From: a candidate division TA06 bacterium
Lineage (GTDB): Bacteria; Edwardsbacteria; AC1; EtOH8
Assembly (NCBI GenBank): GCA_016208585.1
Contig: JACQXR010000133.1
Location: forward strand, 1 to 35,514
Reading direction: 5' to 3'
Length of the DNA: 35,514 nt
Shown one piece after another: positions 11,049 to 35,153 of the stretch. The position numbers and the translations under genes were made by a program. The notes below the pieces were generated by a model. It was not told the origin of the DNA. It was given only the letters and a program-made list of their open reading frames with translations, and did no database searches. Position 1 is the stretch's first letter, and each line of letters opens with the position of its first letter.

Positions 11049-11124
11049 GCCGCTGTAGCTCAGTTGGTAGAGCGACGCTCTCGTAAAGCGTAGGTCACCG
11101 GTTCGATTCCGGTCAGCGGCTCCA
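11049..11124 (+). tRNA. tRNA-Thr (anticodon CGT)
   Basis: A complete 76-base cloverleaf: acceptor GCCGCTG pairs with CAGCGGC, D arm GCTCAGTTGGTAGAGC, anticodon stem ACGCT/AGCGT with loop CTCGTAA (anticodon CGT, reading ACG codons), T arm ACCGGTTCGATTCCGGT, discriminator T and an encoded CCA. Its last 12 bases are repeated twice downstream in a tandem array. Confidence 0.97.
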
Positions 11125-11313
11125 GGCTTGGCATAGGCTCGTCCGCCCCTTTGTCTGCAAAGCATGCGGTTATTCTCAGGGCAAGCTCCGCTTTAGCGTT
11201 GGGGGATCAGCGGCTCCAGACTTGGCTTTTAGCTCGTCCTCCCCTTTGTCTGCAAAGCATGCGGTTATTCTCAGGGCAAGCTCCGCTTTAGCGTTGGGGG
11301 ATCAGCGGCTCCA
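11113..11313 (+). repeat. Tandem 94/95-bp repeat that carries the tRNA-Thr 3' end
   Basis: The sequence TCAGCGGCTCCA, the 3' end of tRNA-Thr including CCA, occurs at 11113-11124, 11207-11218 and 11302-11313. The two units between them (11113-11206 and 11207-11301) are nearly identical, differing only in about 20 bases after the CCA; both contain CTTTGTCTGCAAAGCATGCG and CAAGCTCCGCTTTAGCG. No tRNA body is present in the second and third copies. This occupies most of the 255-base gap between the tRNA and glmM; the remainder (11314-11379) is AT-rich and contains TAATAT (11364-11369), a possible -10 box for glmM without a clear -35. Confidence 0.95.
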
Positions 11314-25752: not shown

Positions 25753-26130
25753 ATGGATTCGGCCAGCAGCAATTATGAAAAACTGTTGAAGGAATTGACC
25801 GATCTCATCCCCGGAGCGGTCTCGGCCAACCTGACCGGCGTTGACGGGATCGGCATCGCCTTCTACAACATCGACCCGGCCTTTGACCCCACCCTGGCCG
25901 ACGCCGAGTTTGCCACTATGCTGGCCGCCGCCAACCGGGCGGCCCAGAACCTGACGGTGGGGGACATTTCGGAACTTATCTTTACCACCGGAAAAATCAC
26001 CATCATCCTCAGGATGGTGGGGATTGATTTTTATCTGGGGGTGGGCCTGCAGGCGGGAGTGGGCAACATCGGGATGGCCCGGCTGCAGATGAGAAGGGCG
26101 GTGGAGGCCTTCGTCAGGGCGCTGTATTGA
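25753..26130 (+). CDS. Roadblock/LC7-domain protein
   Basis: A 125-aa single-domain protein: an N-terminal helix (NYEKLLKELTDLIPGAVSAN), beta strands around GVDGIGIAFYNI, a central helix (EFATMLAAANRAAQNL), strands LIFTTGKITIILRMVG and FYLGVGLQAG, and a final helix. This is the Roadblock/LC7 (MglB-like) pattern. In bacteria these proteins often regulate small Ras-like GTPases of the MglA type; no such GTPase is visible here. A good Shine-Dalgarno (GAGGTGAT) precedes the ATG. It follows the J-domain gene by 74 bases. Confidence 0.8.
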   Translation: MDSASSNYEKLLKELTDLIPGAVSANLTGVDGIGIAFYNIDPAFDPTLADAEFATMLAAANRAAQNLTVGDISELIFTTGKITIILRMVGIDFYLGVGLQAGVGNIGMARLQMRRAVEAFVRALY

Positions 26131-26313: not shown

Positions 26314-26517
26314 GTGTCCATTTATAGACTGCCGGATTGTCATTCCCGTGCTTGCGCCCCGCCAGGGCGGGACTTCAGCGCGCAGGCGTGAAATTTGTCC
26401 TCGTGAAAACGGGGAACGGGAATCCAGTAGTTTCAATAGGTTTTGGATTTCTGCTGGAGTTTATGCCGAAGCTATGAGGTGCAGGAATGACGGAAAAAGG
26501 ACTTTATAAACAGACAC
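26314..26517. mobile_element. MITE-like element with terminal inverted repeats
   Basis: The left end (GTGTCCATTTATA... GTCATTCC, 26314-26346) and the complement of the right end (GTGTCTGTTTATA... GTCATTCC, from 26517 inward) match over about 33 bases with a variable middle. The element is about 204 bases long and flanked on both sides by TAAATA (26308-26313 and 26518-26523), as expected of a target-site duplication. Internal palindromes (CCGCCAGGGCGG) are present and there is no transposase gene. It would be moved in trans. Confidence 0.7.
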
Positions 26518-26540
26518 TAAATAGCGGTTTTTGCAGAAAA

Positions 26541-26771
26541 ACCAAGGTTATAAAGGTTGTAACCCAGGTTAGGAAGGTTATAACCAAGGTTACAAGGGCT
26601 GTAACCAAAGTCGGAATGGTTATTACCCAGGTAAGAACCTTTCTTACCAAGGTCAGAATGGTTCTTACCAAGAACAGAAGGCTTATAGCCCAAGTTACAA
26701 GGGCTGTAACCAAGGGCAGAAAGCTTATAACCTAAGTTTTAAGGGGTATAACCAAGGTCAAAAAGTTAAAT
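26541..26771. repeat. Eleven-unit degenerate tandem repeat, 21-bp period
   Basis: Units start at 26541 and every 21 bases to 26751; the typical unit is ACCAAGGTTATAAAGGTTGT plus A. Phase is kept throughout although bases diverge. Units often contain GGTTATAACC-like dyads across their junctions. One + frame reads as heptads of the form TKVxxVI (TQVRKVI, TKVTRAV, TKVGMVI), and the - strand is also open, so coding cannot be told from simple periodicity. It begins 24 bases after the MITE-like element. Confidence 0.9.
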
Positions 26772-26910: not shown

Positions 26911-27261
26911 TTGCCAAGCCACAACCAAAACCATCCCGACCAGGCCGGCCAGGTGATAGAAAGCATCGCCCTAAGGGAGCAGGAACTTCAGGTCATGCTG
27001 AACCAAGCCCGGGCCGAAGCCGACCGGATTATAACCGAGGCCAGAACTCAGGCCGATCAATTGTTGAAAACGGCCGGCCAGGAACTGTTGCGGCAGGCCG
27101 AGCAGCAGAAAAAGGAGGCGGCCCAGGAGTCGGCCGATCTCAGGGAACAGCGGATGAGCCAGGCCCGAAAAGAAGTGGAAAACCTTCAACAAAAATCCCA
27201 GGCCCGTCGCCGGCAGGCGGTAGAGGCAGTGGTGCAGATGGTTCTGCCGGAGGAGCGATAA
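26911..27261 (+). CDS. V/A-type ATPase peripheral-stalk subunit H/G-like
   Basis: A 116-aa protein that is almost entirely an amphipathic, Ala/Glu/Gln/Arg-rich helix (ALREQELQVMLNQARAEADR, AAQESADLREQRMSQARKEV), as in the H (archaeal) or G (bacterial) peripheral-stalk subunits that pair with subunit E. The start is a TTG preceded by CGGAG; no ATG lies near. It is the first gene of the ATPase cluster and four bases separate it from subunit I. The name follows from composition and position; the sequence itself has low complexity. Confidence 0.75.
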   Translation: MPSHNQNHPDQAGQVIESIALREQELQVMLNQARAEADRIITEARTQADQLLKTAGQELLRQAEQQKKEAAQESADLREQRMSQARKEVENLQQKSQARRRQAVEAVVQMVLPEER

Positions 27262-27265
27262 CAGC

Positions 27266-29158
27266 ATGATTGTGGCGATGGCCAAAGCCCTGATAATCGG
27301 CCCTAAAAATCTGCAATCCCAGGTTATCAAAACATTGCAAGCTATGGGGCGGGTCCATCTATCGGGCCTTGATTGGGATCGGCATAATTTAAAATCCTAT
27401 ACTCTCAGCCTGGAACAGCAGACCCGCAAACAATGGTTGGAGAAGATCAATTCCGAGATAGATCAATTTTTGGTACTGACCGGCTTCCAGGGCAAACCGG
27501 ACAGGCTGGTCAATCCGGACTGGGACGGCCTGCCGGACCTGATCTCCGGGTATCAGCAAAGGGCCAAAGCGCTGGCCCGGGAGAAAATGGAGTTGGAGGA
27601 CGAGCTTTCCTTGGTGGAAAGCTACCGCGGAGCATACCAGGCCCTGGCCCCGCTGATGTCCAAACTGGAGAACAGCCATAAGGTCAAAGCCTTCGGTTTT
27701 TTGCTCAAAGGCAATGATGTCAAAGCAGTGAAGGCGCTGGCCCTCCAGCTTAGCAAGATCACCTCCGGCCGCTGCGAGGTCTACAGTCATTCCTTGAACG
27801 ACGGCCGGAGCGCGGCCCTGGCGGCTTATCACAGCTCCGATAGCGAAAAGATAAAGGGCTTCTTCTCCAAGGCCGGCATCAGCGAACTGAGACTGCCGGC
27901 GGCCATGGAGGCCCGGCCCATGACCGAAGTGGTGGCTTTGCTCAAGGAAAAGGCCTCGGCCCTGCCAAAAAGATTGGAAGAGATCGGACGGGAGCTGGCT
28001 GAATTGTCGCGTTCGTCAGGTCCCGTTTTGCTGGGATACCGGGAGCTGATGGCTGACGAGCTTTCCCGCTTCGGGGCCTCGGCCCAGACCGGTCGGGGAA
28101 GTTTGACCTTCGTGGTGCAGGGATACCTGCCTCAGAGCCAGGTGGAGGAATTAAAAGACCTGCTGCGGAAGGAGTACCAGGACCAGGTCACCGTGCAGAT
28201 AGTGGAGATAGACCATCACCAGGCGGACAAGGTCCCGGTGATCCTCAAAAACCGCAGCCTGATCAAACCATTTGAATTGTTGCTCTCCATCTTCAGCCCG
28301 CCCCAATATGGAACGGTTGACCCCACGCCTTTTATAGCATTTTTCTTTCCCCTGTTCTTCGGTTTTATAGTCGGCGATATAGGATATGGTGTTGTAATGT
28401 TGGTTGCCTCTATCCTGGTTATGATCAAACTTAAGCATAATGCCCTGGCCAAATCGCTTTCCACTATTTTCCTGTTCTGCGCTGTATGGACCACTGTTTT
28501 CGGGGTCATCTTCGGGGAACTATTCGGAGATTTCGGCGAGCACATGCACTGGATCAAACCGATGGCCGAAAACCTCAACCGCCTGAGCAGCGAATCCATC
28601 ATGACCCTTCTTAAAATGGCGATACTGATCGGCGTGATCCAGGTCTATGTGGGTTTTGGCATCATGTTATACATCGGCATCAAGCATCGGAACCTGCATC
28701 ACATCCTGGAACCGGTGGCCTTTGCCCTGGGAGTGTTGGGCGTTTTCGGGATATTTTTTACCATGATGCTCAAACTGCTGCCGGCTTCGTTGCTGTGGCC
28801 GTCGATAGTTCTGACCGGGGCCAGCGCCGCTACCCTGGGCATACTGGCCGGGGTGGCCGGTCCCATTGAAATATTCGGCGCCGTCGGCAATATCCTGTCC
28901 TATGCCCGTCTGTTCGCCATCGGGCTTTCGGCGGCCTACCTGGCTTACGCCGCCAACCTGATCGGCCGCACCATCGGGGGCCTGCCCGGATTTTTGGTGG
29001 CGGCCTTGGTAGTACACCCGCTGTTCTTTGCCTTGGGCCTGATCAGTCCCATTATGCAGCCTTTTCGTCTTCAGGTGGTGGAGTTCCTAACCAAGTTCAA
29101 ATACCACGATTATCCAGGCAAACAATATAAACCATTAAAAACAATAGGAGGTAAGTAA
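27266..29158 (+). CDS. V/A-type ATPase subunit I (membrane a-type subunit)
   Basis: A 630-aa ion-channel stator subunit. The N-terminal half (about 1-330) is cytoplasmic, with long coiled arms that anchor the E/H stalks. The C-terminal half has about seven or eight membrane helices beginning TPFIAFFFPLFFGFIVGDIG. The motif LSYARLFAIGLSAAYLAY carries the essential arginine (Arg548) that faces the c-ring carboxylate. A Shine-Dalgarno (GGAGGAG) precedes the start. The stop is directly followed by the ATG of subunit K, whose ribosome binding site is inside this gene. Confidence 0.95.
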   Translation: MIVAMAKALIIGPKNLQSQVIKTLQAMGRVHLSGLDWDRHNLKSYTLSLEQQTRKQWLEKINSEIDQFLVLTGFQGKPDRLVNPDWDGLPDLISGYQQRAKALAREKMELEDELSLVESYRGAYQALAPLMSKLENSHKVKAFGFLLKGNDVKAVKALALQLSKITSGRCEVYSHSLNDGRSAALAAYHSSDSEKIKGFFSKAGISELRLPAAMEARPMTEVVALLKEKASALPKRLEEIGRELAELSRSSGPVLLGYRELMADELSRFGASAQTGRGSLTFVVQGYLPQSQVEELKDLLRKEYQDQVTVQIVEIDHHQADKVPVILKNRSLIKPFELLLSIFSPPQYGTVDPTPFIAFFFPLFFGFIVGDIGYGVVMLVASILVMIKLKHNALAKSLSTIFLFCAVWTTVFGVIFGELFGDFGEHMHWIKPMAENLNRLSSESIMTLLKMAILIGVIQVYVGFGIMLYIGIKHRNLHHILEPVAFALGVLGVFGIFFTMMLKLLPASLLWPSIVLTGASAATLGILAGVAGPIEIFGAVGNILSYARLFAIGLSAAYLAYAANLIGRTIGGLPGFLVAALVVHPLFFALGLISPIMQPFRLQVVEFLTKFKYHDYPGKQYKPLKTIGGK

Positions 29159-29506
29159 ATGCGGAAACTTTTGGTTTTGGTACTGTTATCCCTGATCCTG
29201 CTGCCCCTGGCTTCAATTGCTTTGGCCCAGGAGCACGGCCAGGCCCCAGCCACCGAAGCCCAGCCGGCCGCCCCGGCCGCCAACAACAACAGCATAGTAA
29301 TCTGGAAGGCCCTGGGAGCCGCCCTGGCCATCGGCGTGTCGGCCTTTGCCACCGCCTGGGCCCAGAGCCGGATCGGTTCGGCCGCGGCCGGCGCCATGGC
29401 CGAGAAGCCGGAGATCGGCGGCGTGATGATCGTGCTGGAGGCCCTGCCCGAGACCATCATCATCCTGGGGTTCGTGATCGCCATCATGATAGTGGGGATC
29501 AAGTAG
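29159..29506 (+). CDS. V/A-type ATPase subunit K (c-ring proteolipid)
   Basis: A 115-aa rotor-ring subunit. Residues 1-23 look like a signal peptide (LLVLVLLSLILLPLASIALA) and are followed by an Ala/Pro-rich linker. A two-helix hairpin follows: helix 1 (about 46-68) and helix 2 (about 88-112). So one hairpin per subunit, not the duplicated form of eukaryotic and Enterococcus proteolipids. The ion-binding carboxylate is Glu98 in LPETIIILGF. Gln69 in helix 1 and Thr99 occupy the places of the Na-ligating residues in Na-translocating rings. A strong Shine-Dalgarno (AGGAGG) lies seven bases upstream of the ATG, consistent with the need for many copies. A hairpin follows the stop. Confidence 0.92.
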   Translation: MRKLLVLVLLSLILLPLASIALAQEHGQAPATEAQPAAPAANNNSIVIWKALGAALAIGVSAFATAWAQSRIGSAAAGAMAEKPEIGGVMIVLEALPETIIILGFVIAIMIVGIK

Positions 29507-29563: not shown

Positions 29564-29638
29564 AGCTTTTCTTTAGCTAAAGTGCCCCGGCCCTTTAATT
29601 CGCAATTGATGAAATCAAATTTAAATATAGAACTCAAT

Positions 29639-30211
29639 ATGGAATCGGAACTTTTAAAAGTAATAGAAAATGAAGCCCAGGCCGAACGGCAGAGGATCCT
29701 GAACACTGCCCGGCAGGGCGCCAAAGAAATCCAGGAAAAAACCCTGGCTCAGGCCGCTCAGCTGAAGCAGGCGCAGGAAGCTTTAATTCTATCTGAAAAC
29801 AACATTTCCCGGGCCAAGGCTCAAAGCGCCGCTCACCTGGAGGCCTCGGCTTTGATTTTATCCGCCAAAGACCAAATCATCAGCGGCATTTTTGCCGAAG
29901 CGGCCCAGGAGCTCAATTTGCTGAGCGGGGCCCCGCTGAAGAAGGCTCTTAAAAGCCTGATGGCCGAAGCCTGTTCCCAGTTCGGTTCCGGCATGGTGGT
30001 GACGGTGAAAAAAGAAGATCTGTCATTAGCCCAGCAGATAGCCAAGGAACTGAAATTAGACGCCAAGTTGGAAGCGGACCCTCTGGTCAAAGACGGGGTA
30101 ATCGTCTCCAATCCTGACAGAACCGCAGTGGTGCTGAACCGCTTTGCCGACCGGATGGCCCGGGCCAAACCAGCTTTAACCTCGTCATTAGCGCAAATAT
30201 TGTGGGATTGA
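29639..30211 (+). CDS. V/A-type ATPase subunit E (peripheral stalk)
   Basis: A 190-aa protein with a long N-terminal helix (ESELLKVIENEAQAERQRIL, TLAQAAQLKQAQEALILSEN) and a C-terminal alpha/beta domain (GMVVTVKKEDLSLAQQIAKE, LVKDGVIVSNPDRTAVVLNR), the standard E-subunit layout. The start is uncertain: ATG 29639, ATG 29609 or GTG 29582 are in frame and none has a Shine-Dalgarno. The chosen start gives the usual length. The lack of a good ribosome site here, against the strong one of subunit K, fits lower need (two copies per complex). It is followed after four bases by subunit C. Confidence 0.85.
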   Translation: MESELLKVIENEAQAERQRILNTARQGAKEIQEKTLAQAAQLKQAQEALILSENNISRAKAQSAAHLEASALILSAKDQIISGIFAEAAQELNLLSGAPLKKALKSLMAEACSQFGSGMVVTVKKEDLSLAQQIAKELKLDAKLEADPLVKDGVIVSNPDRTAVVLNRFADRMARAKPALTSSLAQILWD

Positions 30212-30215
30212 TATA

Positions 30216-31253
30216 ATGCCGTCGGATTATGGTTACATAAATGCCAGGATCAGGGGGCAGCACAGCCACCTTTTGAAGCCGGTGGCATATGAAGAACTTT
30301 TAGCCCTGCCCGGATACCAGCCGCTGGAAAAATGGATGGAGTCCAGCCCTTATTCCAAGCAGTGGCAGCTGGCCAAGGCCCGCTATCATGGGATAGAGGC
30401 GCTGGAGTGGTCTCTGGAAAAAAACTTTTGCCAGGCCACAGAACTGCTTTTGAAAATAGCCGAAGGACAGCCGCGCGATCTGATCACCATCATCTTAAGG
30501 CGCTGGGACCTTTCCAACCTGATCGCGGTGGCCCGCGGCATTCACGGCAGTTGGTCGTCAGTCGAAATCCTTAAAAGCATATTGCCGGCCGGCGGCATCA
30601 GCGAAGTGAAATTACAGGAACTGGCTAACCAACCGGATATGGCCGGCCTGACCGATACCCTTTATACCTGGGGAGATGATTTTCATCAGCCCTTTAAACA
30701 CGCGCTGGAAGAATACCAAAAGGAAAAGGGCCTGGCTCCGGTGGAACTGGAGTTATACAAATATTATTATTCGTGGGTCTTTAAAAAACTCCCGCTATGG
30801 GGGGACGATTCCGCATCCCTGAAAGTTCTTTTCCAGCGGGAGATAGACATCCTTAACGCCAAGGCCCTGAAAAGGCTTAAAGAAAAAAAAGATCTGGCGG
30901 CAGAATCAATTCCCAAATATTATATTCCCGGAGGAACTCTCCTGACCAAAGAATGGTTCATAAAATATTTCGACCGCAAGGAGGGCCCCAAGGTCCTGTC
31001 CTCGCTGAAGGGGACGCGTTATTACGAATACCTGTTCCGGCCGGGCCGCGACCTAAAATCGGAAGAGAAGCTGGAGCAAGAGCATTTCCGGGAATTGTCC
31101 CGACGTTACCAGGGGAACCCGCTGGGAATTGATCTGGCGCTGGGCTTCCTCTGGCAGAAATATTACGAGGTCATCAACCTGCGGCTTCTGGCCCGGGGCA
31201 AATTTTACGGTATAACCGGCGATCAGATCAGGGATCAGCTGTTGCTGTGGTAA
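30216..31253 (+). CDS. V/A-type ATPase subunit C (central-stalk socket)
   Basis: A 345-aa protein of the C/AC39 family, which joins the central rotor shaft to the proteolipid ring. It is helical throughout; diagnostic stretches include GYINARIRGQHSHLL at the N-terminus, RDLITIILRRWDLSNLIAVA in the first repeat and NPLGIDLALGFLWQKYYEVI with NLRLLARGK near the C-terminus, the family's typical end. The start is four bases after the E stop. Subunits F and A would be expected next, but an unrelated membrane module follows 42 bases later. Confidence 0.92.
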   Translation: MPSDYGYINARIRGQHSHLLKPVAYEELLALPGYQPLEKWMESSPYSKQWQLAKARYHGIEALEWSLEKNFCQATELLLKIAEGQPRDLITIILRRWDLSNLIAVARGIHGSWSSVEILKSILPAGGISEVKLQELANQPDMAGLTDTLYTWGDDFHQPFKHALEEYQKEKGLAPVELELYKYYYSWVFKKLPLWGDDSASLKVLFQREIDILNAKALKRLKEKKDLAAESIPKYYIPGGTLLTKEWFIKYFDRKEGPKVLSSLKGTRYYEYLFRPGRDLKSEEKLEQEHFRELSRRYQGNPLGIDLALGFLWQKYYEVINLRLLARGKFYGITGDQIRDQLLLW

Positions 31254-31295: not shown

Positions 31296-32450
31296 ATGAA
31301 AAAATATTGGATGTTGCTTCTGGCGGCCGGCCTGGCGTTTCCGGCCTTGGCCGTGGATCCGCCGGCCAACCTGAAGGTCTGCGATGCTCCCAATGACGAC
31401 GGCCGTTCGGTGACAATAACCTGGAATAAATCAGCTGCCGAAACCGCCGATCCGGTTTCGTTTAAAGGGTACCGGGTTTTGCGGGCCGAATCGGCAAGCG
31501 GGCCTTATGCCGAAGCGGGTTTTGCGTTCCCGGGCAGCGTCGAGTTCGCCGATAACGCCGTCGCTCCCGGCGTTCAGTACTATTACAAGCTCAACGCCGT
31601 CACTTTTTCCGACTCCGCCCAAACAGAGCCCGCCGGTCCGGTAATCTCCAGCGCCCAGTGGTTCAACGTCGCCCGGGTCAATATTCTGATAGCTTTTCTG
31701 GCCTTTACCGGGCTGATTCTGCTGTATATTTACAAGGCCCGGCACGGCGCCGACCTTTTTGTGAGGCGCATCGCCGGCCTTCAGGCGGTGGATGAAGCCA
31801 TCGGCCGGGCCACTGAAATGGGGAGGCCCATCCTCTATCTGCCATCGGGCGGCCTTTCGGCGGTGTCTGACATTCAGACCCTGGCCAGCCTGGTGATACT
31901 GGGCCGGGTGGCCAATAAGGCGGCCGAATACGACACTCCGCTTTTAGTGCCCTGCTCCGATCCCCTGGTGATGACATTGGCCCAGGAGATCGTGAAATCC
32001 GGCTATATGAACGCCGGCCGGCCCGACGCCTACCGGGCGGAAAACATCCGCTACCTGACCAACGAGCAGTTTGCCTACACCGCCGGGGTGGACGGGATGA
32101 TGGTGCGCGAGAAGCCGGCCGCCAATTTCATGATCGGGACATTTTACGCCGAATCGCTGATACTGGCCGAGACCGGCTATTCCACCGGGGCCATCCAGAT
32201 CGCCGGCACCGCCATGATCACCCAGCTGCCGTTCTTTGTGGCGGCCTGCGACTACACTTTGATCGGCGAGGAGATTTACGCCGCCTCGGCCTATCTCTCC
32301 AAAGAGCCGGTGCTTTTGGGCACCATCAAGGCCCAGGACTGGGGCAAGGCGGCGGTGATATTTTTGATCCTGGCCGGAGTTCTGCTGCAAACTTTGGCCT
32401 TAAAATTCCCGTCGCTGGGTTTCTTTTCTCGCTGGCTGATGCCGCGGTAA
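31296..32450 (+). CDS. Membrane protein with fibronectin-like and DUF6754-like domains (module gene 1)
   Basis: A 384-aa protein with a signal peptide (MKKYWMLLLAAGLAFPALA), a fibronectin-type-III-like domain (about 22-110: NLKVCDAPNDDGRSVTITWN, YYYKLNAVTFSDSAQ) and a TM at about 130-148. A 200-residue alpha/beta domain follows (GRPILYLPSGGLSAVSDIQT, DTPLLVPCSDPLVMTLAQEI, TGAIQIAGTAMITQLPFFVA) and a C-terminal TM at about 350-370. The last domain looks like the family named DUF6754, from memory; its function is unknown. With the signal sequence cleaved, the fibronectin part would be outside and the alpha/beta part inside. It is the first of four membrane genes that separate ATPase subunits C and F. 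Confidence 0.7.
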   Translation: MKKYWMLLLAAGLAFPALAVDPPANLKVCDAPNDDGRSVTITWNKSAAETADPVSFKGYRVLRAESASGPYAEAGFAFPGSVEFADNAVAPGVQYYYKLNAVTFSDSAQTEPAGPVISSAQWFNVARVNILIAFLAFTGLILLYIYKARHGADLFVRRIAGLQAVDEAIGRATEMGRPILYLPSGGLSAVSDIQTLASLVILGRVANKAAEYDTPLLVPCSDPLVMTLAQEIVKSGYMNAGRPDAYRAENIRYLTNEQFAYTAGVDGMMVREKPAANFMIGTFYAESLILAETGYSTGAIQIAGTAMITQLPFFVAACDYTLIGEEIYAASAYLSKEPVLLGTIKAQDWGKAAVIFLILAGVLLQTLALKFPSLGFFSRWLMPR

Positions 32451-32470
32451 TAGTTTAACAACCTTTTCAA

Positions 32471-32510
32471 TCCGCAGATTACACAGATTTTCGCAGAAAT
32501 ATACAAAGAT
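32471..32510. repeat. Fragment of a dispersed repeat
   Basis: TCCGCAGATTACACAGATTT followed by a variant second copy; this CCGCAGATTACACAGATT type is scattered through many environmental genomes. It lies in the 152-base gap between module genes 1 and 2, which has no other feature. Confidence 0.55.
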
Positions 32511-32602
32511 TGTTTTGTTCGGTTAAACTGGGGATAAAATACTTTTCAGGTTAGATAGTCCTATGAAACAAAACATCCGGCGCTAATTGCGGGAGACATA
32601 AA

Positions 32603-33262
32603 ATGAAAAAAACCATTCCCTTAGTGATCACCTTTCTGATAGGATTTTACATGATCCTGGCCTTCTTCGTGCCGCATCCTATGGTGGCCAATTCGGCCCA
32701 GGAGATGCAGTCCTGGGAGATAATCATCGTGGCCTTTACCCTGGTGCTGGGAATCGGCAACCTGGTGTTCGTCCATGCCGAAAAGATCCAGCGCCGCCGC
32801 CAGGGCTGGTTTTACAGCCTGACCCTGCTGATCTGCCTGGGCGCCATGATGGCGCTGGGATTGTTCGGGGGCATCAAGGAAGGCACATCTTATTACTGGC
32901 TATATGACAATGTGATGGCTCCGTTGTCCTCGGCCATGTTCTCGCTGCTGGCTTTTTTCATCGCTTCGGCGGCCTACCGGGCTTTCCGGGCCCGCAACAA
33001 GGAGGCCACACTATTGCTGATCGCTGCGGCCATCATCATGATCGGGAGGGTGCCGCTGGGAAGCTGGCTGTGGCAGCATATCCCGCTCTTGGGCGCCAAG
33101 TTTCCCATCCTGCTGGACCAGGTGACCCGGTGGGTGATGGAGGTTCCCAATACGGCCGGCCAGAGGGGCATCAAGATAGGAGCCGCCCTGGGCGCGGTCT
33201 CCATGGCCCTGCGGATGCTTTTGGGCATAGAGCGTTCCTACCTGACCACCGGCGGCAATTAG
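32603..33262 (+). CDS. Polytopic membrane protein (module gene 2)
   Basis: A 219-aa protein with about six hydrophobic segments (LVITFLIGFYMILAFFVP, IIIVAFTLVLGIGNLVFVH, LTLLICLGAMMALGLFGG, APLSSAMFSLLAFFIASAA, LLLIAAAIIMIGRVPLG, ALGAVSMALRMLLG). A conserved-looking loop (AEKIQRRRQGW) lies between the second and third. No named family is recognised. GGGAGA precedes the start. It is in the same direction as, and 152 bases behind, module gene 1; the next gene begins 16 bases after its stop. Confidence 0.75.
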   Translation: MKKTIPLVITFLIGFYMILAFFVPHPMVANSAQEMQSWEIIIVAFTLVLGIGNLVFVHAEKIQRRRQGWFYSLTLLICLGAMMALGLFGGIKEGTSYYWLYDNVMAPLSSAMFSLLAFFIASAAYRAFRARNKEATLLLIAAAIIMIGRVPLGSWLWQHIPLLGAKFPILLDQVTRWVMEVPNTAGQRGIKIGAALGAVSMALRMLLGIERSYLTTGGN

Positions 33263-33278
33263 AAGGAGGATGGCAAAC

Positions 33279-34115
33279 ATGCGCAATTTCCTGGAAAGAC
33301 TAACCCGGATAGACCGGCGCTGGATATTTTTGGCCCTGGGCCTGACCGTGGCCCTGGCTCTGCTGATCAATGTCAAGCTGCCAATGACCGTTTCCGGCGA
33401 CGTGCGGCAGGCCTACGATCTGCTGGAGAAACTGCCCGAGGGAAGCCCGGTGCTGTTCTCCTGGGATTACGATCCCGGCTCCATGCCCGAGCTCTATCCG
33501 CTGTCGGCCGCCATGCTGCGCCATGCCATGCGCAGGAATCTTAAGGTAGTGATGATGGGCCACTGGGTCACCGGGATCCCGCTGATCGAGAAACAGGTGT
33601 CCGAGGTGATCCGGGTTGAATTCCCCGATAAAGTTTACGGACGCGATTACGTCAATCTGGGCTATAAATCCGGGCAGGCGGTGCTGGTGGTAACCATGGC
33701 CAAAAGCATTGCCGACGCCTTTCCCCAGGATTATTACAAGAACAAGACCGACACCCTGGAGCTGATGAGATCGGTCAAGTCGCTCAAGGACATGGGGGCG
33801 GTGGTCTCCTTCTCGGCCGGCGATCCCGGGCTGATAATGTGGATCCAGTTCGCCTGGCAACGTTTCGGGGTGCCGGTTACCGGGGGCTGCACCGCGGTCT
33901 CGGCCCCGGAGTTTTCGGCCTACCTGCAGTCGGGGCAGCTGATGGGCCTGATGGGAGGGATGCGGGGCGCAGCCGAATACGAGGCGCTGGTCAAGCATCC
34001 GGGCGCGGCCTCCACCGGGATGTCGGCCCAGAGCCTGGCCCATTTTCTGATCGTCGGTTTCATCCTGATCGGCAACCTAGCTTATTTCCTGACCCGCAAA
34101 AAGGAGGACAAGTAA
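33279..34115 (+). CDS. Membrane-anchored alpha/beta protein (module gene 3)
   Basis: A 278-aa protein with an N-terminal TM (WIFLALGLTVALALLIN, about 15-31), an alpha/beta domain (SPVLFSWDYDPGSMPELYPL, LKVVMMGHWVTGIPLIEKQV, GQAVLVVTMAKSIADAFPQD) and a C-terminal TM (LAHFLIVGFILIGNLAYFL). The ATG at 33279 is preferred: AAGGAGG at 33263-33269 is nine bases upstream, whereas the in-frame ATG at 33270 abuts it. The layout recalls module gene 1: alpha/beta domain, a Cys/Ala loop (GGCTAVSAPEFSAY beside ACDYTLIGEEIYAASAY) and a terminal TM. The two may be distant paralogues. No function is known to me. Confidence 0.7.
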   Translation: MRNFLERLTRIDRRWIFLALGLTVALALLINVKLPMTVSGDVRQAYDLLEKLPEGSPVLFSWDYDPGSMPELYPLSAAMLRHAMRRNLKVVMMGHWVTGIPLIEKQVSEVIRVEFPDKVYGRDYVNLGYKSGQAVLVVTMAKSIADAFPQDYYKNKTDTLELMRSVKSLKDMGAVVSFSAGDPGLIMWIQFAWQRFGVPVTGGCTAVSAPEFSAYLQSGQLMGLMGGMRGAAEYEALVKHPGAASTGMSAQSLAHFLIVGFILIGNLAYFLTRKKEDK

Positions 34116-34116
34116 A

Positions 34117-34722
34117 ATGGCGCTGTTTGGAATATGGCTGGCCGCGCTTTTAACGCTTTGCATTTACAGCTTTCTGTACAAGGACAATCCCCTGTACAAG
34201 TTTGCCGAGCATGTCTATGTGGGGATTTCGGCCGGTTACTTCGTGGCGGCCGAGTTCCATAACGTGGTATTGCCCAACCTCTGGATCCCGCTGACCACGA
34301 ATTTCGCCCACAAATATTACCTGATCATCCCGGGAGTGATGGGTCTGCTGGTATTCTTCGCCTTCTCCCGCAAATACAACTGGCTGTTGCGTTTTCCGAT
34401 TTCGATGGTGGTGGGGATGGGCGCCGGGCTTTCTGTGACCGCCTTTTTATCCACCGATGTCCTGGCCCAGACCCAGGCTACTTTGATCCCGATGAACAGC
34501 CTCAACAATTTCCTGCTGGTGCTGGGGGTGCTGGCCACCCTGGTTTATTTCTTCTTTTCGGCCGAGCACAAGGGTTTTGTGGGGGCCGGGGCTAAGCTGG
34601 GGGTTTGGTACCTGATGATCGCCTTCGGCGCGGCTTTTGGATATACGGTGATGGCCCGGATATCGCTTTTGATCGGGCGGATGCAGTTTTTACTGGGCGA
34701 CTGGCTGCACATACTCAAGTAG
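34117..34722 (+). CDS. Polytopic membrane protein (module gene 4)
   Basis: A 201-aa protein with about six hydrophobic segments (ALFGIWLAALLTLCIYSFL, VYVGISAGYFVAAEF, YYLIIPGVMGLLVFFAF, FPISMVVGMGAGLSVTAFL, NNFLLVLGVLATLVYFFFS, YLMIAFGAAFGYTVMARISL). A strong Shine-Dalgarno (AAGGAGG) lies in the end of gene 3 and only one base separates the two genes, so they are translationally coupled. No named family is recognised. Confidence 0.75.
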   Translation: MALFGIWLAALLTLCIYSFLYKDNPLYKFAEHVYVGISAGYFVAAEFHNVVLPNLWIPLTTNFAHKYYLIIPGVMGLLVFFAFSRKYNWLLRFPISMVVGMGAGLSVTAFLSTDVLAQTQATLIPMNSLNNFLLVLGVLATLVYFFFSAEHKGFVGAGAKLGVWYLMIAFGAAFGYTVMARISLLIGRMQFLLGDWLHILK

Positions 34723-34829: not shown

Positions 34830-35153
34830 ATGAACCGTTTAGCCATAATAACCGACAGCGGCACGGCCACCGGGTTCCGGTTGGCCGGGGCTGAGACCTT
34901 TGAGGTCAAAGACAACCGGGAGATGCAGGAGAAGGTGCTGGAACTGATCAACACCGAAAGCTACGGGCTGATCGCGGTCAACGACCAGCTGGCCGGGGAC
35001 TTGGGCGAGGACGTGGCCCGGGCCCTTAAAAACAAGGCCCTGCCGGTGGTGCTGCCGTTCCCGGTGCCCAGGGAGGGACAGGTGATCAGCGGGGAGCAGT
35101 ATCTGGCCAAATTGGTGAAGGACGCCATAGGGTTTTATGTTAAGTTGAAATGA
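34830..35153 (+). CDS. V/A-type ATPase subunit F
   Basis: A 107-aa central-shaft subunit. The N-terminus (LAIITDSGTATGFRLAGAET) shows the family's nucleotide-like Rossmann start and the GFRLAG motif. Then come YGLIAVNDQLAGDL and PVVLPFPVPREGQVISGEQY, a helical tail following the proline-rich strand. Length is typical. A Shine-Dalgarno (AAAGGA) lies close to the ATG. It belongs with the ATPase genes upstream but is separated from subunit C by four unrelated genes, and the catalytic subunits A, B and the rotor subunit D do not follow. Confidence 0.88.
   Translation: MNRLAIITDSGTATGFRLAGAETFEVKDNREMQEKVLELINTESYGLIAVNDQLAGDLGEDVARALKNKALPVVLPFPVPREGQVISGEQYLAKLVKDAIGFYVKLK

Follow-up and report, generated by a model that had tools for sequence, protein, structure and literature searches.

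The usual bacterial V/A-ATPase operon runs I-K-E-C-F-A-B-D. In the window, by which we mean the whole 35,514-nucleotide stretch analysed here, the ATPase locus shares with this operon the subunit order G/H, I, K, E, C and then F, but it adds four genes between C and F; relatives have two more, together with others between F and A. Described protein families also bear on this locus. DUF6754 (PF20539), to which the first of the four genes belongs, spans just an alpha/beta domain and its transmembrane segment (TM) and carries no functional assignment, and a search of the non-subscription literature returned no paper on it. With respect to the roadblock/LC7 proteins MglC and MglB, the family of the gene at 25753-26130 is MglC-like.

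Four genes between subunits C and F

The genes of the window locus are, in order:

25753-26130, + strand: MglC-like roadblock/LC7 protein at the head of the ATPase operon (family profile)
26911-27261, + strand: V/A-ATPase G/H-like gene (PF16999, Pfam scan)
27266-29158, + strand: V/A-ATPase subunit I (PF01496/PF18670)
29159-29506, + strand: V/A-ATPase subunit K (PF00137)
29582-30211, + strand: V/A-ATPase subunit E (PF01991)
30216-31253, + strand: V/A-ATPase subunit C, which bounds the slot on its upstream side (PF01992, E 1e-54)
31296-32450, + strand: D1, with signal peptide, Fn3-like domain and PF20539 (DUF6754, E 6e-118)
32603-33262, + strand: D2, polytopic membrane protein
33279-34115, + strand: D3, TM-alpha/beta-TM protein (a start at 33270 is also open)
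34117-34722, + strand: D4, polytopic membrane protein
34830-35153, + strand: V/A-ATPase subunit F, which bounds the slot on its downstream side (PF01990, E 5e-17)

The window contig stops before the genes for A, B and D are reached; relatives have A and B further downstream of F, with other genes intervening.

The open reading frame list and a Pfam scan place the four same-strand genes D1 to D4 in a 3.5-kb break between C and F. D1 and D2 are separated by 152 nt. The ribosome site AGAAGGAGG places the start of D3 at 33279, which follows it by 9 nt, and not at 33270, which it touches. With this start, the D2-D3 and D3-D4 gaps are 16 nt and 1 nt, respectively, and D4 is preceded by the ribosome site AAAGGAGG. 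An initial annotation of this DNA had described four same-strand membrane-protein genes between C and F, with gaps of these two sizes and ribosome sites; the open reading frames, Pfam matches and topology confirm the arrangement, and the gaps hold with the D3 start at 33279.

We examined ten genomes of the window's phylum, drawn from one family and four genera. DUF6754 is present in all ten, at two to five copies each, and every genome carries one V-ATPase C gene. A D cassette lies between C and F in nine of the nine genomes in which the slot is readable, across the four genera; in the tenth (G008), the contig stops at C (L245). Specifically, another genome of the window's genus, assembled in 20 contigs (L070), has the window arrangement, with D1 88% and D4 98% identical. 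One order in nine genomes of four genera reflects neither chance nor misassembly, and a local accident or misassembly was rejected on this basis. The earlier suggestion that the genes are an insertion that became fixed is well supported.

Protein families, structure and predicted topology

D1 is a clear PF20539 member, scoring 393 bits against a Pfam gathering score of 27. It comprises an extracytoplasmic Fn3-like domain with a titin-like Fn3 match, a TM at 128-146, the DUF6754 alpha/beta domain and a second TM at 353-371, and its AlphaFold2 model has a pLDDT of 86.7. On the DUF6754 side, the positive-inside count next to the membrane is 7.1 K+R. The AlphaFold2 model of D3 (pLDDT 95.2) has one TM on either side of an alpha/beta domain. 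Family-wide charge counts predict that this domain lies outside and that the DUF6754 domain of D1 is cytoplasmic. By hydropathy and charge, D2 and D4 are each predicted to have about six TMs, with the N-terminus in for D2 (family alignment of 30 sequences) and out for D4 (23 sequences); the topology comes from a simple hydropathy scan, which detected five of the likely six TMs in both proteins.

Searches of Pfam and NCBIfam assigned D2, D3 and D4 to no family above cut-off. The sole sub-cut-off match of D4, to Hol_Tox (20.3 vs 23.3 bits), is best taken as chance. None of the four proteins matched a known ATPase subunit, whether as a family or as a solved structure, in Pfam, NCBIfam and profile searches. 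A fold search with D3 found no close PDB fold, returning weak Rossmann-like matches with TM-scores below 0.4 and a value of 0.23 for F1 gamma; the corresponding search with D1 was swamped by its Fn3 domain. Recent duplication was rejected as the origin of the D1/D3 and D2/D4 pairs, profile similarity being absent from both (prob 1.7 and 1.2, respectively). The models of D1 (after Fn3) and D3 have a matching order of secondary-structure elements, as judged by eye from strings and not by superposition.

A cassette independent of the ATPase

Homologues were collected from named genomes of WOR-3/Stahlbacteria, Poribacteria, Latescibacterota, Planctomycetota, Brocadiia and Oligoflexia. In addition, we sampled 294 Planctomycetota genomes and 147 genomes of the WOR-3 phylum, of which 76 and 140, respectively, contain DUF6754. 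The order D1-D2-D3-D4 recurs in WOR-3, Planctomycetota, Poribacteria, Latescibacterota and Bdellovibrionota. It is complete at 135 of the 163 D1-bearing places, and the view of the initial annotation that the four genes are a module is well supported. The cassette is often tandem, in two or three copies. At about 20 places the cassette is incomplete for a reason other than a contig end, so D2-D4 do not always lie beside D1.

Co-occurrence also indicates one unit. Among the 294 Planctomycetota, D1 is found in 76 genomes, D4 in 73 and both in 72 (Fisher p 1e-62, a value inflated by genome relatedness), leaving four genomes with D1 but not D4 and one with D4 but not D1. The gene c4 is found in 70 of these genomes, 68 of them with D1 (p 7e-55, inflated in the same way). 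At least five genomes (G137, G056, G224, G168 and G119) have D1 adjoining c4 without D2-D4, while D4 lies elsewhere in the genome; these split cassettes are less subject to the weakness of relatedness than the p-values are.

Outside the window's phylum, an ATPase gene lies within 3 kb of none of the 133 D1-bearing places. We tested 79 module-bearing genomes for the V-ATPase C gene, which was present in 30 of 39 WOR-3 genomes and in 2 of 40 Planctomycetota, and was not found in the other 38 Planctomycetota. In other phyla that possess a V-ATPase, the gene next after C is F or A, with no D genes between. Since cassettes elsewhere lack ATPase neighbours or ATPase genes, the D1-D4 cassette is not an ATPase part by family. 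A stator or general ATPase subunit was rejected as the family role on the 133 places and the 38 Planctomycetota; the stator or partner subunit put forward in the initial annotation, taken as a general role, fails on the same counts and on the C-then-F or C-then-A order of other phyla. The annotation had also raised the prospect that homologues might lie mostly away from ATPase genes and away from each other; the former is the case and the latter is not.

The cassette occurs instead within a wider locus of the order c30-MutL-like ATPase-c4-[D1-D4]x1-3-LplA-DUF4388-roadblock-c26-c42-c43. The genes for c30, the MutL-like ATPase and c4 precede D1 in Latescibacterota, Bdellovibrionota (Oligoflexia), many Planctomycetota, WOR-3 and the window's phylum, where the MutL-c4 locus is present in ten of ten genomes. 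After D4, in WOR-3 and the window's phylum, come LplA, DUF4388, a roadblock-type gene, c26/c47, and c42 and c43, which are two small membrane proteins. The full order with two cassettes, c30-MutL-c4-[D1-D4]x2-LplA-DUF4388-Robl-c26-c42-c43, was read in the WOR-3 loci L196 and L197; the WOR-3 locus L201 shows it from MutL on, and the extended operon also occurs in the window's phylum (L071-L074). Thus, D1-D4 is the core of a larger system that has no earlier description.

The ATPase gene located before c4 and D1 falls, like GlmL/MutL (PF13941, TIGR01319), in PF13941 (ASKHA), but it falls short of every NCBIfam cut-off for GlmL, the accessory protein of methylaspartate mutase (227 vs 475 and 172 vs 204 bits), and the neighbours read included no recognisable mutase gene. 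The protein c30 is a small helical protein of about 110-150 aa. The c4 protein is soluble and about 373 aa long, most members open with M-A/G-H-A/S-Y-T-P-G, and profile searches assigned it no family. To our knowledge, there is no reported function, structure or experiment for D2-D4, c4 or c30. Relatedness to Rnf/Nqr A-E was considered because D2 and D4 are about 200 aa long with opposite topology and c4 is weakly RnfC_N-like (E 0.04, 14.4 bits vs a cut-off of 25.6); it was rejected, D2 and D4 having no Rnf-Nqr Pfam match up to E 1. GcvPB often lies upstream of the wider operon in WOR-3 and the window's phylum. A lipoate/glycine-cleavage function, suggested by LplA and GcvPB, was set aside and is recorded as a note only, because LplA and GcvPB do not adjoin the module in the Planctomycetota loci that were read.

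Two cassette lineages in one slot and their interpretation

We constructed a tree of concatenated D1-D4, which was repeated with IQ-TREE. The ATPase-nested cassettes split into two distant clades, M and N, each with full support and about 45-52% identical to the other in protein. Type N cassettes fill the slot in L076-L080, L083 and L084 (genera g2-g4), where Robl and/or c26 lie between them and F, and they group with the second cassettes of WOR-3 operons, those preceding LplA. Type M is found in the slot of two genomes only, the window and L070 (genus g1), the third g1 genome being the one whose contig stops at C (L245), and its sister group is formed by the cassettes in the MutL-c4-[ ]-LplA locus of G001, G002, G004 and G005 (L071-L074). 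The g1 genomes retain the MutL-c4-LplA locus, but it contains no D cassette (L239, L240 and L244). MutL-locus M copies were also lost, without relocation, in G003, G006 and G009 (L241-L243). Most simply, the cassette of the MutL locus displaced type N and Robl-c26 in the ATPase operon of g1; alternatively, this operon may once have contained both M and N, with different losses afterwards. Two lineages in one slot indicate that it was filled or refilled at least twice, beyond a single fossil insertion, and keep a link with the ATPase plausible within this phylum.

Together, these observations lead us to favour, as a reasonably likely explanation, that D1-D4 form an independent hetero-oligomeric inner-membrane complex, the membrane core of a wider system with the MutL-like ATPase, c4 and c30 (and, in two phyla, DUF4388, roadblock and two small membrane proteins), which in the window's phylum is probably linked to an ion gradient. 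There, the complex is probably co-expressed with the ATPase and functionally tied to it; operon sharing alone is no proof of functional coupling. We infer that the four proteins associate physically, that the complex is gated and that it is coupled to the ion gradient. In such a scheme, D2 and D4 would make a membrane channel or scaffold, and D1 and D3 would present similarly laid-out alpha/beta domains on opposite membrane faces. The MutL-like ATPase and roadblock proteins might gate the complex from the cytoplasm, with c4 and the MutL-like ATPase acting on the D1 face. Placement in the ATPase operon would match the amount of complex to the ion pump, whose gradient it would probably use or report on. 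Searches with D2, D3, D4 and c4 found no homologue whose function is established or whose structure is solved, so a transport or sensing role is a guess. As for its history, the cassette may have first entered the C-F slot as type N with a roadblock tail, this copy then being replaced, in the window's genus, by type M from the MutL locus.

D1-D4 might instead be accessory or regulatory V/A-ATPase subunits (an extra stator, a peripheral lipid or ion module, or a brake) that the phylum drew from the wider family and that now bind the enzyme. Such recruitment would agree with a slot that is occupied in all readable genomes and by two separate lineages, with the MglC-like roadblock gene at the operon head and with Robl and c26 between D4 and F in g2-g4. 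However, most module-bearing Planctomycetota use the family without any V-ATPase, and D1-D4 match no known ATPase subunits. Moreover, the type M sister serves the MutL locus, so type M has not long been specialised for the ATPase, and we consider enzyme-bound subunits rather unlikely. Neutral accident, in which one early type N insertion underwent homologous exchange with M in one genus and co-transcription was inherited without functional coupling, draws on the frequent movement and duplication of this cassette family; recombination between M and N is conceivable, since they are homologous over their whole length. The level of protein identity between them, however, makes them a poor substrate for homologous exchange, and the slot has been kept over four genera while several MutL-locus M copies were lost. 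We regard this history, too, as unlikely.

The preferred complex could also be set beside the eukaryotic Ragulator on the lysosomal V-ATPase, a likeness by analogy and not membership. The family at 25753-26130 (seven genomes) matches MglC (7ct3, E 2.6e-17); a homologue in L080 passes the Robl_LC7 cut-off (27.5 vs 23 bits), and the window protein alone falls below it (14.7 bits). Roadblock-type genes accompany both ATPase-nested and MutL-linked cassettes. MglA-like GTPase genes, identified by eye, lie elsewhere in two genomes of the phylum, and no GTPase gene was recognised within these operons. The roadblock and MglA-like genes could possibly make a regulatory hub. By extension, and as quite an improbable reading, the V/A-ATPase would have a built-in hub, made of D1-D4, roadblock/LC7 proteins and an MglA-like GTPase from another locus, that reports or controls the state of the pump; it would be convergent with V-ATPase-Ragulator-Rag and built from a membrane system run elsewhere with a MutL-like ATPase. 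No evidence for a Rag-like complex was seen, and we know of no Ragulator counterpart of D1-D4. The search of the non-subscription literature found no paper on roadblock proteins in a bacterial V-ATPase operon.

The D1 gene of this module is carried by 140 of 147 genomes of one phylum, by about a quarter of the sampled Planctomycetota and by all ten genomes of the window's phylum. The putative four-subunit membrane complex has no assigned function or solved structure, and the literature searched holds no paper under its family name. The extended operon points to likely partners, namely the MutL-like ATPase, c4 and the roadblock proteins. Among the Planctomycetota that carry the module, several have genomes of 4-8 Mb assembled into a single large contig or a few, suggesting that cultured, genetically tractable members are likely to exist. 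The ATPase-nested copies, in turn, offer a natural test of a tie to ion pumping.

Roadblock gene and repeats in the window

At the head of the V/A-ATPase operon, the G/H-like gene lies immediately 3' of a gene for a roadblock/LC7 protein whose family matches Myxococcus MglC, and at least seven of the phylum's genomes keep this arrangement.

25753-26130, +: MglC-like roadblock/LC7 protein
26540-26765: ACCAAGGTTACAAAGG-like repeats of 21/42 bp, tandem and imperfect, in the interval that separates the ATPase operon from the roadblock gene
11049-11124: tRNA-Thr gene, its 3' end overlapping the start of the direct repeats
11113-11313: two direct repeats of 95 bp each (94%), starting inside the tRNA-Thr gene, within its 3' end

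An 82-aa ORF at 26487-26735 is spurious, a product of the tandem repeats. The direct repeats at the tRNA-Thr 3' end resemble a scar of the kind left by integration or duplication.

Neighbours of the MutL locus

The system formed by the MutL-like ATPase, the family c4 protein and the four membrane proteins D1-D4 is embedded amid glycine-cleavage-related genes. GcvPB (glycine dehydrogenase) precedes the locus and LplA (lipoate ligase) follows it in two phyla: WOR-3 (loci L196 and L197) and that of the window (L240-L242, L071-L073). When sequences from L073 and other loci were compared by eye, the DUF4388 and roadblock-type proteins encoded there appear to have a C-terminal domain in common.

In the window's own genome (G000), the MutL locus on contig C62 carries an additional gene, which is absent at the corresponding position in two other loci of the genus (L240 and L244).

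L239:5010-6410: P-loop NTPase-like gene, 466 aa, between the DUF4388 and roadblock genes

ExbB-ExbD-ExbD genes are close to the module in WOR-3 as well as in one planctomycete, on opposite sides (3' of family c43 in L039 and L194; 5' of family c30 in L132).

Solitary D1 genes in WOR-3

Some WOR-3 genes for D1, the DUF6754 protein, have no adjoining D2-D4 or c4 (L010, L011, L013, L015, L016, L190 and L203). These are D1 paralogues whose role may be separate.
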